DNA of 54,162 bases from Acidothermaceae bacterium (GTDB taxonomy: Bacteria > Actinomycetota > Actinomycetes > Acidothermales > Acidothermaceae), in NCBI GenBank assembly GCA_025934355.1, contig JAICYF010000002.1:1-54162 (forward strand), given 5' to 3'. Numbering within the stretch: position 1 is the first letter of the stretch; each line of letters opens with the position of its first letter. Positions 19,871 through 26,884 of this stretch are shown piece by piece. The notes beneath the pieces are model-generated. The model made no database searches. It was not told the origin of the DNA and saw nothing but the letters and a program-made list of their open reading frames with translations. The position numbers and the translations under genes were made by a program.

Positions 19871-20089
19871 TCAGGAATCAGCTACGCCCAATGCGAAGTT
19901 GCCGGCCTCGAACTCCTCTTCGCCGTTGAGCAACGCGCGCACCTCCGACTCACGGAATCGGCGGTGGCCGCCGGGTGTGCGGATGCTGCCAATCCGGCCG
20001 GACGCCGCCCAGCGTGTGACAGTCTTCGGGTCCACCCGGAAGAGAGTCGCGACCTCACCGGGGGTGAGCAGGCGGTCACGGTTTTCCAC
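19871..20089 (-). CDS. bldC: BldC-type MerR-like DNA-binding protein
   Basis: A 72-residue single-domain regulator consisting almost entirely of a winged helix-turn-helix: LLTPGEVATLFRVDPKTVTRWAASG, then SIRTPGGHRRFRESEVRALL. This is close to Streptomyces BldC, which lacks an effector domain and binds DNA direct repeats as head-to-tail multimers. The start is GTG with the complement at 20087-20089 and AAAGGGG just upstream on the minus strand; a longer frame would run through the upstream repeats. Three 18-bp direct repeats lie 26 bases upstream, suggesting autoregulation. Similar genes adjoin ubiX/mqnE in Streptomyces. The Glu-rich C-terminus (EEEFEAGNF) is not DNA-binding. Confidence 0.9.
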   Translation of the reverse strand: MENRDRLLTPGEVATLFRVDPKTVTRWAASGRIGSIRTPGGHRRFRESEVRALLNGEEEFEAGNFALGVADS

Positions 20090-20114
20090 GTCGTCCCCTT
20101 TCCTGGGACACGGT

Positions 20115-20168
20115 GGTCTTTCGAACACTGCGCGTCTTAAGAGCACTGCGGGTCTTTCGAACACTGCG
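20115..20168. promoter_or_regulatory. Three 18-bp direct repeats upstream of bldC
   Basis: GGTCTTTCGAACACTGCG occurs at 20115-20132 and exactly again at 20151-20168. Between them CGTCTTAAGAGCACTGCG (20133-20150) matches at most positions. The array is head-to-tail with an 18-bp period, in the bldC 5' region. BldC family proteins bind direct repeats, so this may be its own operator; a simple triplication is the alternative. Confidence 0.55.
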
Positions 20169-23517: not shown

Positions 23518-23531
23518 TAGGCTTGAGCTTG
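23518..23531 (+). promoter_or_regulatory. Candidate leaderless -10 for mqnC
   Basis: TAGGCT (23518-23523) is seven bases before the GTG at 23531, fitting an actinobacterial -10 whose transcript starts at the start codon. No ribosome-binding site is evident. No clear -35. Confidence 0.3.
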
Positions 23532-24709
23532 TGGCTGACGTGCGCGTGATTCTCGACCGGGCCGCTGATGGCGGCCGTATCTCGCCTGAAGAGGCGCTGA
23601 CCCTTTACACCGAGGCGCCGTTGCACGCGCTCGGGCGCGCGGCTGACGTCGTCCGGCGTCGTCGTTTTGGCGACACCGCCGACATCGCCACCTACCTCAT
23701 CGACCGCAACATCAACTACACCAACGTGTGCGTGACGGCGTGCAAGTTCTGCGCGTTTTACCGCGCGCCGAAGCACGCCGAGGGGTGGACGCATCCGCTT
23801 GAGGAGATCCTGCGCCGCTGTGGTGAGGCCGTTGAGCTCGGCGCGACCCAAATCATGCTGCAGGGCGGCCACAGTCCCGACCTCGGCATCGAGTGGTACG
23901 AGGAGACGTTCTCGGCGATCCGGGCGGCCTACCCCCAGCTGGCGCTGCACTCCCTCGGCGGCTCGGAGGTCGTGCACATCTCGCGGACGTCGGGCCTGAC
24001 CTTCGAAGAGGTGATCCGGCGGTTGCACGCGGCCGGCCTCGATTCGTTCGCCGGCGCCGGCGCCGAGATTCTGGTCGACCGGCAGCGGCAAGTCATCGCG
24101 CCGCTGAAGGAGTCCGGGGCCGTTTGGCTTGAGGTGATGGAGACCGCTCACCGGCTCGGTGTCGAGTCGACGGCGACCTTCATGATGGGCACCGGCGAGA
24201 CGAACGCCGAGCGCATCGAGCATTTGCGGTTGATCCGCGACGTCCAAGACCGCACCGGCGGGTTCCGCTCCTTCATCCCGTGGACCTACCAGCCGGAGAA
24301 CAACCACCTGAAGGGCCGCACGCTCGCGACGCCGCTGGAGTACTTGCGGCTGCTCGCGGTGGCGCGGCTGTTCTTCGACAACATCGCGCACCTGCAGGTC
24401 TCACAGCTGACGTTGGGCAAAGAGGTCGGTCAGCTCGGGTTGCATTACGGCGCCGACGACCTCGGCTCGGTGATGCTGGAAGAAAACGTGGTGTCGTCGG
24501 CGGGTGCTCGCCATCAGTGGAACTTGGCGGAGCTGATCCATCTGATTCGGTCGGCCGATCGGATTCCCGCGCAGCGCGACACGCTCTACAACCACCTGCG
24601 CGTGCACTGGACGCCGGCTGATGACCCGACACCGGACGATCGGATTCACTCGCACGTCGCGTCGACCGCACCCGCGTTCCGCCGCGACCTGCCACTCGTC
24701 GCCAGCTAA
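23531..24709 (+). CDS. mqnC: Cyclic dehypoxanthinyl futalosine synthase (radical SAM)
   Basis: Cyclises dehypoxanthine futalosine in the pathway's second radical-SAM step. The cluster cysteines are Cys67-x3-Cys71-x2-Cys74 in NVCVTACKFCAFYRAP. Other family blocks are QIMLQGGHSPDLGIEWYE, SLGGSEVVHISR, DSFAGAGAEILVDR, FMMGTGETNAERIEHL, FIPWTYQPENNHLKG and LHYGADDLGSVMLEENVV. At 392 residues it is full-length. GTG 23531 may be read from a leaderless mRNA. A repeat-bracketed cassette follows, after which the pathway deaminase and methyltransferase resume. Confidence 0.95.
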   Translation: MADVRVILDRAADGGRISPEEALTLYTEAPLHALGRAADVVRRRRFGDTADIATYLIDRNINYTNVCVTACKFCAFYRAPKHAEGWTHPLEEILRRCGEAVELGATQIMLQGGHSPDLGIEWYEETFSAIRAAYPQLALHSLGGSEVVHISRTSGLTFEEVIRRLHAAGLDSFAGAGAEILVDRQRQVIAPLKESGAVWLEVMETAHRLGVESTATFMMGTGETNAERIEHLRLIRDVQDRTGGFRSFIPWTYQPENNHLKGRTLATPLEYLRLLAVARLFFDNIAHLQVSQLTLGKEVGQLGLHYGADDLGSVMLEENVVSSAGARHQWNLAELIHLIRSADRIPAQRDTLYNHLRVHWTPADDPTPDDRIHSHVASTAPAFRRDLPLVAS

Positions 24710-24758
24710 CGCGACCGCTCCTGGCGAACCTCCGCGCCGTCCCAACCCGCGTCCCGTC

Positions 24759-24790
24759 CGGCGTGCAGTTGCGGGGTTAGAGCCCCTGAA
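24759..24790. repeat. 32-bp direct repeat, left copy
   Basis: This 32-bp element contains GGCGTGCAGTTGCGGG and CCCCTGAA, and matches 25826-25857 at 30 of 32 positions in the same orientation. It lies 19 bases past the stop of the minus-strand gene at 24810. Together the copies bracket a 1.1-kb cassette. A GGGGT/GCCCC mini-hairpin is present in this copy. Confidence 0.9.
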
Positions 24791-24809
24791 ACGTCGGCCA
24801 GCCGAGGCC

Positions 24810-25730
24810 TCAAGCATGGCCAAAGCGCGCGTGCCCTGCGGCCAATTGGGCGATCACCACCTCGGGCAGCAGTCTGATGGCGACCGTCGCGAATCGCAGC
24901 ATCGGTTTACCCGTCACGATGATGAGATCGTTCTGGCGTTCCATGTCGTCCCAGTACGTCAGCGGTTTCAAGTGCACCGCACCGTCGATCTCCGCTGAGA
25001 ACCCGTCGAAGTCCGCGTCGAGCCATCGCCGACGGCCGGCGCGGTCGATCCGAAAGACCTGCCGTCGCGGCGGTGGAATGTGCGCGAGTCTCGCGAGCCG
25101 GCCCAGGTCGATCTCGGCGAATGAATCGGCCCCGCCCTGGATGTCGGCGAGCACATGGTCCAGCAGTCGGTGGTGCCTCGCACGGCTCGCAGCGGCGAGT
25201 TCGGGTCGAAGCCGTTCTGCTGTGGTCAGACCCTGTTGTACGCCAGCCGCCAGGATCGCGCACGCCTTGCGCGGCCAAGGCGTCCACGAGGCGGCGTCGA
25301 TTAGCGCTCGCTCGGATCGTACTGTGGGAATGGACCGGGCCGGATGCACGTCGCTCGGGTCGAAGCGACGCGATTCGTGAATCCGGACGCCTTCGAGCTG
25401 TTGCGCTCGGTATCGGTGAGGCACCAGCAGATGCAGCTGCCCGTCGTCGAACCCCTGAAGCCCGTATTGCTGCGCCGCGGTGATGCCCGCGAGAGCAGCC
25501 GCCGGGTTGGCGAGCACGGCGATCCAGCGACGTTGTAGTTCGGTGGTTGGGCCGTTGTGCAAGACGACAACACCCCTGGCCGGTAGTTGCCATCGGCCGT
25601 TGGACAGCCTTGCGCGGACGACGTCGTCCGAGATACCCAAGTCGTGCAGCTGCTTGCGCCGCACCACGCCGTCCTGATCGGCCGCGAGGATACGCAACGC
25701 GTCGTGGGGCAGCGCGTTGATCCGGGGCAT
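24810..25730 (-). CDS. AbiEi-like winged-helix / DUF559-type nuclease-fold protein
   Basis: A 306-residue two-part protein. The N-terminus (about residues 1-60) resembles the AbiEi/AbiEi_4 winged helix found in type IV toxin-antitoxin antitoxins and related proteins: a start-region helix, then GVVRRKQLHDLGISDDVVRARLSNGRWQ. The middle (LANPAAALAGITAAQQYGL, RALIDAAS) is typical of these actinobacterial proteins. The C-terminus has an endonuclease-like pattern LDADFDGFSAEIDGAVH, then W-x-D-M-x-R-Q-N and MLRFATVAI, reminiscent of DUF559/Vsr-type folds. No AbiEii toxin gene is adjacent. The gene runs opposite to the mqn genes and sits between 32-bp direct repeats, suggesting an acquired unit. Start ATG is complementary to 25728-25730. 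Confidence 0.72.
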   Translation of the reverse strand: MPRINALPHDALRILAADQDGVVRRKQLHDLGISDDVVRARLSNGRWQLPARGVVVLHNGPTTELQRRWIAVLANPAAALAGITAAQQYGLQGFDDGQLHLLVPHRYRAQQLEGVRIHESRRFDPSDVHPARSIPTVRSERALIDAASWTPWPRKACAILAAGVQQGLTTAERLRPELAAASRARHHRLLDHVLADIQGGADSFAEIDLGRLARLAHIPPPRRQVFRIDRAGRRRWLDADFDGFSAEIDGAVHLKPLTYWDDMERQNDLIIVTGKPMLRFATVAIRLLPEVVIAQLAAGHARFGHA

Positions 25731-25825
25731 GCAACCAGCGTTGCCCGAGGCCGCTCGGCCGACGGCCGATCTTTCGCGGGCTGTGCAAGATGCCTTGGCC
25801 ACTTGTGGACGCGGATTCATCCGAT

Positions 25826-25857
25826 CGGCGTGCAGTTGCGGGCTTAGAACCCCTGAA
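25826..25857. repeat. 32-bp direct repeat, right copy
   Basis: Near-identical (30/32) to 24759-24790, same orientation, 95 bp upstream of the minus-strand gene's start and 46 bp upstream of the deaminase start at 25904. Confidence 0.9.
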
Positions 25858-25903
25858 GTGCACGCCGGTCGAACGAAGGCGGCTGGGCTGGCAGGATGAA
25901 CGG

Positions 25904-26884
25904 GTGAGTTACCCGAAGATCGAGCTGCACGTGCACCTCGAAGGCGCGGTTCGCCCTCGCACCTTGCTCGACCTCGCCAGCCGCAACGACCTTCCGCTGC
26001 CCGCCGACACAGTCGAAGGCATCAGCGAGCTGTACGAGTTCACCGATTTCGCGCACTTCATCGAGGTCTGGATCCTCACCACCAACGTGATGCGCACGGT
26101 CGACGACTTTCGACAGATCACCGTCGACTACGCGGCCGAGGCGGCTCGTCATGGCGCGGTTTACCTCGAAGCCATCTTTTCGCCGATCGAGCGGGTCATG
26201 CGCGGCGTTCGCTGGGAGGACATCTTCGAGGGCTATTGCGATGGCGCGCAGCAAGCCCAGGAGGAGCACGGCGTCGTCGTCCGATTCACTCCTGACGCCT
26301 ATCGCGGGGCTGAGGTCGACGCGGTGGAAGAGTTGGCCCGTCGCTGCGTCAAGTATCGCGACCGCGGCGTCGTCGGCTTCGGCATCGGCGGCCCGGAGAA
26401 AGACATGTCTCCCGTGCCGTATGCCAAGGCGTTCGCGATCGCGCGCGATGGCGGTCTCGGCGCAGTTCCGCATGCCGGCGAGGTGTGCGGGCCTGAGTCG
26501 ATCCGCGAGACCATCGAAGCGCTTGGCGCGGACCGGGTCCGCCACGGCATCTCGGCAATCAACGACGCGGCGCTGATCAAAGAGCTGGTCGCCAGGCAGA
26601 TCGTGCTCGACGTGTGCCCGACGTCCAACCTGCGGACGAGGGCCGTCCCTGACCAGACGCAACACCCGCTGCCGCGCCTGATCGAAGCCGGCTTGCTTTG
26701 CACGCTTAACACCGACGATCCGGCGATGTTCAACACCGACCTCGGCCGCGAGCACGAGATCGCCCTCGAGCTGGGCGTCAGCCCCAAAGCCCTGTACGAC
26801 GCGGGTGTTGTCGGCGCCCTCTGCGACGACGCGATGAAGGCTCGGCTGACCGGCATCGGCGAAAGCGCGAGCTGGCCCGCGTGA
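25904..26884 (+). CDS. Adenosine deaminase family; probable 6-aminodeoxyfutalosine deaminase
   Basis: A 326-residue amidohydrolase-fold deaminase. Metal ligands are His9 and His11 (ELHVHLEG), a later His in PHAGEV with the catalytic Glu, and the Asp in LNTDDPAMF. General adenosine deaminases share these. However, the sequence and length match the COG1816 members from Streptomyces avermitilis and Acidothermus that were shown to deaminate 6-aminodeoxyfutalosine, including [20 protein letters not shown]. It lies between mqnC and menG, so it most likely turns the MqnE product into futalosine. GTG 25904 has GCAGGA seven bases upstream. It overlaps menG by GTGA. Confidence 0.88.

Follow-up and report, generated by a model that had tools for sequence, protein, structure and literature searches.

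The window, the whole 54,162-nucleotide stretch analyzed here, carries a single reverse-oriented gene bracketed by two copies of a repeat and located between two genes assigned by synteny with relatives, mqnC and an aminodeoxyfutalosine deaminase gene. The features predicted in this region are as follows:

23531-24709, forward strand: mqnC homologue, the 3' side of which is a repeated landing place of the family (5/20 genomes)
24759-24804, no strand: left palindrome, downstream of the cassette gene, with 24759-24790 as its 32-bp direct-repeat part
24810-25820, reverse strand: cassette gene encoding an AbiEi-like DNA-binding region and an EDxHD/Vsr-like nuclease, probable start codon at 25730
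24822-25136, reverse strand: nuclease domain, residues 229-333 (alignment, profile, and Foldseek)
25167-25745, reverse strand: AbiEi-like part, residues 26-218 (PADLOC and Foldseek)
25826-25867, no strand: right palindrome, upstream of the cassette gene, 42 bp
25904-26884, forward strand: aminodeoxyfutalosine deaminase homologue, intact, on the far side of the cassette

The sequences at 24759-24790 and 25826-25857 are identical at 30 of 32 positions, with an offset of 1067 bp, and the sole ORF between them (24810-25820, reverse strand) encodes 336 amino acids. Repeats of this identity flanking one reverse gene had been reported in a preliminary description of this DNA, and both were found again at these positions. 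The description of the repeat as direct held for the 30/32 match but not for its simplicity, as the right copy forms part of a longer, 42-bp palindrome (25826-25867), and the two repeats are copies of one 42-bp hairpin-forming palindrome. The right palindrome folds strongly as single-stranded DNA (z -4.0, 0/200 shuffles). The left palindrome keeps its outer arm and centre, while its inner arm on the gene side has decayed, and its fold is not significant (z 0.2). The tetranucleotide GTAG/CTAC is absent on either side of 25826-25867, in a check confined to the window palindrome. No AbiEii or recombinase gene was identified next to the cassette gene, which is flanked by the homologues of mqnC and of the deaminase gene; both the flanking genes and this absence agree with the preliminary description. 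A small helix-turn-helix ORF near the menaquinone genes (19871-20164, reverse strand), the sequence of which includes TPGEVATLFRVDPKTVTRWAASGRIGSIRTPGGHRRF, presumably resembles the developmental regulator BldC.

The family alignment suggests that the true start of the cassette protein is Met31, at 25730. The PADLOC AbiEi model matches residues 26-218 with an E-value of 3e-24, and the Pfam AbiEi_4 match (E 6e-4) lies under the family cut-off. The AlphaFold model of the protein has a mean pLDDT of 90. In Foldseek searches, the AbiEi-like part matches the AbiEi antitoxin 6y8q (E 7e-6) and Rv2827c (1zel; E 4e-6), and the C-terminus more weakly resembles the homing endonuclease I-Bth0305I (3r3p), with a probability of 0.87, a TM score of 0.67 by target, and an E-value of 0.58. 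A family profile search also reaches the endonuclease-like structure 3hrl (E 3e-7). In an alignment of 45 diverse relatives sharing 25-62% identity, E236, D268, E277, G280, H283, and D292 are invariant, indicating that the nuclease is under strong selection; the pattern in the window protein reads E277xDG280. The AbiEi-like region and C-terminal nuclease proposed earlier were thus both recovered. DUF559 was not matched in the window protein at the Pfam gathering score and was found in 11 of the 45 relatives, with E-values up to 0.01. PADLOC AbiEi models match 43/45 family members, although these are nuclease fusions. The fold of the cassette protein differs from that of Y1/HUH enzymes.

Five further family genes are encoded in the genome that contains the window (G000). 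Paralogues with the same kind of flanks had been anticipated, and most of these genes do have matching upstream and downstream palindromes, but the palindrome sequence is different for each gene. Compared with a null built from mismatched upstream/downstream pairs, 50 of 76 relatives in the class had flank matches beyond its 99% level; the window cassette, C203, and C33a entered this count on the wrong strand, and the window cassette, whose flanks do match, is not among the 50. A second set, comprising 67 named loci from Frankia, Micromonospora, Actinoplanes, Planosporangium, Aeromicrobium, Mumia, and uncultured Frankiales and overlapping the first by about eight, gave 41/67. About 60-65% of the actinomycete relatives are therefore bracketed by matching palindromes, and approximately 35-40% have no detectable matching flanks. 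Among control genes, that is, other genes at the same loci, flank similarity exceeds 16 in 2/192 and never reaches 20, indicating that the window repeat is no chance match.

A cassette may have two identical palindromes, as at loci L221 and L228, and little is shared between the palindromes of paralogues. The relative orientation of the two end palindromes is not fixed (21 inverted, 22 direct), and no target-site duplication was seen at resolved junctions, so these cassettes fit no standard transposon. Dozens of divergent paralogues occur per genus. Protein similarity is a weak predictor of similarity between palindromes (Mantel r 0.17, 45/2000), and a tight co-divergence of protein and palindrome was therefore dropped. 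A four-arm comparison of homing into a solo palindrome versus end-to-end transposition gave 0.80-0.85 for all arm pairs, with no signal. At one locus (L080; G057:C23:21503-25360), the family gene is bracketed by a near-identical inverted duplication of 170 bp, which includes a palindrome and is longer than in other cassettes. Carriage of the family by plasmids or phages was rejected, as a search yielded just one weak plasmid match and one short phage-collection record. The latter, a 35%-identical relative at MT837139.1:3682-4536, is the sole phage-collection match and lies in an unannotated record of 7.6 kb, labelled 'Bacteriophage sp.' and derived from human faeces.

Genomic comparison within genus g39 (12 genomes) indicated that cassettes at other loci align with positions 1076 to 2185 of locus L112. 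These two positions are the outer edges of the left and right palindromes, and the alignment mostly stops there. At a second g39 site, between convergent genes, the cassette is present in five species (G059, G065, G067, G068, and G061). G064 and G062 have a different cassette there, in inverse orientation and with different palindromes, and the site is empty in G063, G066, and G042, with neither gene nor palindrome. The empty sites indicate that the palindrome travels with the gene. The mobility of the cassette is well supported, and these comparisons show the linkage of palindrome to gene. An origin of the palindrome as a pre-existing feature of the site, duplicated on insertion, is ruled out at the observed empty sites, where the palindrome is absent. 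In G061 (L272:2540-2850), the left palindrome of the cassette is interrupted near its centre by an insert of about 236 bp that has short CCTGTTGCG/CGCAACAGG termini and resembles a miniature element targeting the palindrome.

The site behind mqnC was compared across 20 genomes that have a true mqnC. Five of them, namely the window genome and G001, G011, G017, and G023 (loci L052, L056, L065, and L084), carry a family gene there in the same orientation. Conservation of the gene here throughout the relatives, named earlier as an outcome that would speak against an inserted cassette, is thus not observed. In G002 and G057, mqnC directly adjoins the deaminase gene. Together with the palindrome-to-palindrome alignment in g39, this empty junction bears out the earlier view of the cassette as inserted; the expected empty site with one repeat was found in part, as the junction is empty in both genomes but has no palindrome. 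In the trees, the closest grouping of the window gene is with C203 and C33b, paralogues from its own genome, and the gene of G001 groups with others. The AU test rejects a single origin both for the window/G001 pair (p 2.7e-4) and for all five genes at this site (p 1.8e-32). The trees and AU tests thereby reject vertical descent of the window gene behind mqnC, so that genes must have arrived here independently or been replaced by paralogues. The recurrent landing region corresponds to positions 24709-25904 of the window, just downstream of mqnC.

Palindromes without a gene, hereafter solos, were counted with a BLAST-type search. In G000, the paralogue palindromes have approximately 15 (C33a), 6 (C216), 5 (C235), 2 (window), and 1 (C33b) solos. 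The two gene-less copies of the window palindrome are located at C67:25741 and C305:26985, and across 60 related genomes only single background-level matches to it were found outside G000. Of the REP-like families found in G000, that of C33a (G000:C33:6746-7672; solos L177-L189) has the most copies, and a single family in G059 has about twenty visible solos. Judged with a simple GC-based gene caller, 0/35 solos lie inside predicted genes, 17 lie between convergent genes, and none lies in a divergent gap. Divergent gaps make up 14/62 of the gaps at solo loci, so that about 7 of the 31 classifiable solos would be expected in them. One solo in G059 is cleanly absent from G069 and G065, where the 4-kb flanks are 88% and 86% identical. 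The arms of G059 solos covary, with 31 double changes versus 13.6 in shuffled sequences; in the smaller set of C33a solos, covariation was not above shuffles. Repeats scattered without such genes, which had been put forward as evidence against a cassette, do therefore occur in G000, but they do not count against it, as the solos are gene-specific and polymorphic, which argues for a REP-like mobile palindrome.

Collectively, we regard the window cassette (24759-25867, about 1.1 kb) as probably a selfish one-gene mobile unit with a cassette-specific palindrome at each end. The fusion of an AbiEi-like region to a nuclease and the 42-60-bp palindromes private to each paralogue suggest that each protein recognizes its own palindrome. 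The AbiEi-like part would bind the palindrome of its cassette, just as promoter palindromes are recognized by AbiEi proteins (PMC11062541), and the fused EDxHD/Vsr-type nuclease would nick or cut DNA at or near it. Repair or strand transfer would then copy the whole cassette, or the palindrome alone, to sites just downstream of genes. In the window, either this cassette or a paralogue that replaced an earlier one would have landed behind mqnC, and the upstream palindrome may double as the operator of the cassette gene. We infer from domain content and palindrome specificity that the nuclease drives movement by this route of recognition, cutting, and copying. Another, unrecognized recombinase could be responsible for the spread of solos and cassettes.

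Among known systems, the window cassette works most like a REP/RAYT (TnpA-REP) system, or REPtron, with a nuclease replacing the HUH transposase. REP-like palindromes are common in bacteria. Their spread has been connected only with HUH transposases, and for REPs of the CGTC class no enzyme is known (PMC3733652). Both systems have one gene bracketed by palindromes plus many gene-less copies in intergenic DNA (PMC3733652; PMC8266576). In both, one genome has several gene-specific palindrome families, which lie at the 3' ends of genes in unidirectional and convergent gaps. In contrast, the enzyme here is an AbiEi-nuclease fusion rather than a Y1 HUH transposase, the palindromes are longer (42-60 bp), many paralogous cassettes occur per genome, and the ends of the window palindrome lack GTAG. 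Since neither a HUH enzyme nor a GTAG tag is present at the window, the cassette is not a REP/RAYT system. The nuclease resembles EDxHD homing endonucleases such as I-Bth0305I, as well as Vsr/DUF559 nucleases, in its fold, in its E-D-x-H-D residues, and in having a DNA-binding extension. The target on which I-Bth0305I dimerises is nearly 60 bp long (PMC3943268), close to the palindrome length here. Unlike homing endonuclease genes, the cassette lies outside any intron or intein and is bracketed by palindromes. The empty sites in G063, G066, G042, and G002 have no palindrome, indicating that the cassette did not insert within a pre-existing recognition site and is not a standard homing gene. 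The N-terminal two-thirds match AbiEi of the AbiE type IV toxin-antitoxin system (AbiEi; Rv2827c) by profile and fold, but the cassette has no AbiEii nucleotidyltransferase toxin, has this part fused to a nuclease, and is mobile alone; lacking AbiEii, it is not an AbiE toxin-antitoxin system. It also differs from DDE insertion sequences, as its ends are not fixed in orientation and no target-site duplication was seen.

The palindromes might instead be operators and hairpin terminators of an autoregulated defence or housekeeping nuclease, with the solos as its regulon and ordinary horizontal transfer as the only movement. The binding of AbiEi proteins to own-promoter palindromes (PMC11062541) accords with this, as do the upstream palindrome directly preceding the cassette gene and the solos with strong hairpins at gene 3' ends, in terminator position. 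However, a regulon would favour promoter regions, and no solo lies in a divergent gap. Neither the matching downstream copy and the paralogue-specific sequences, nor the exact palindrome-to-palindrome homology at unrelated loci, nor the solo insertion polymorphism and the repeated landing at one site would be explained, and we consider this reading unlikely.

A slightly smaller chance is given to the cassette being a passenger, with the nuclease as cargo and an unrelated hairpin-recognizing transposase or recombinase of the REP/RAYT or IS200/IS605 style acting in trans. The hairpin ends, REP-like dispersal, and 3'-end preference do resemble those of REPs (PMC3733652; PMC8266576), and the cassette itself has no recombinase. 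However, no Y1 transposase (PF01797) was identified in G000, G001, G014, or G059 in a search that detected positive controls such as E. coli, the G000 and G001 assemblies being 84% complete. The catalytic residues of the nuclease are invariant, and each nuclease paralogue has one palindrome family, pointing to recognition by that paralogue rather than by one common enzyme. Mobilization in trans, suggested in the preliminary description, is weakened accordingly. The defence or addiction role suggested there, as a small single-gene anti-phage cassette related to AbiE, is very improbable: the AbiEi similarity with its nuclease fusion and the variable occupancy typical for defence genes would fit, but the AbiEi domain name is the sole pointer to it, no AbiEii partner toxin is present, the cassettes examined occur alone amid ordinary host genes, such a system has no use for dispersed palindromes that lack a gene, and dozens of divergent paralogues occur per genus.

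The window cassette belongs to a large, apparently undescribed actinomycete family of palindrome-bracketed mobile one-gene cassettes; no report linking DUF559/AbiEi nucleases to dispersed palindromes was found in the open-access literature, which was the scope of the search. We tentatively propose that the family may constitute a new class of actinomycete mobile element, in which an AbiEi-EDxHD fusion spreads both the palindrome-capped gene encoding it and palindromes without a gene, no recombinase of the HUH, DDE, tyrosine, or serine type being involved, and each paralogue makes its own REP-like family. Many 'orphan AbiEi' defence annotations in actinomycetes would then be selfish elements. 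As PADLOC-style searches score the family strongly as AbiEi (43/45), mobile elements may inflate the counts of defence genes in actinomycetes. Gene-specific palindromes tied to an enzyme family unrelated to the first would mean that the spread of palindromes arose more than once, with different enzymes.
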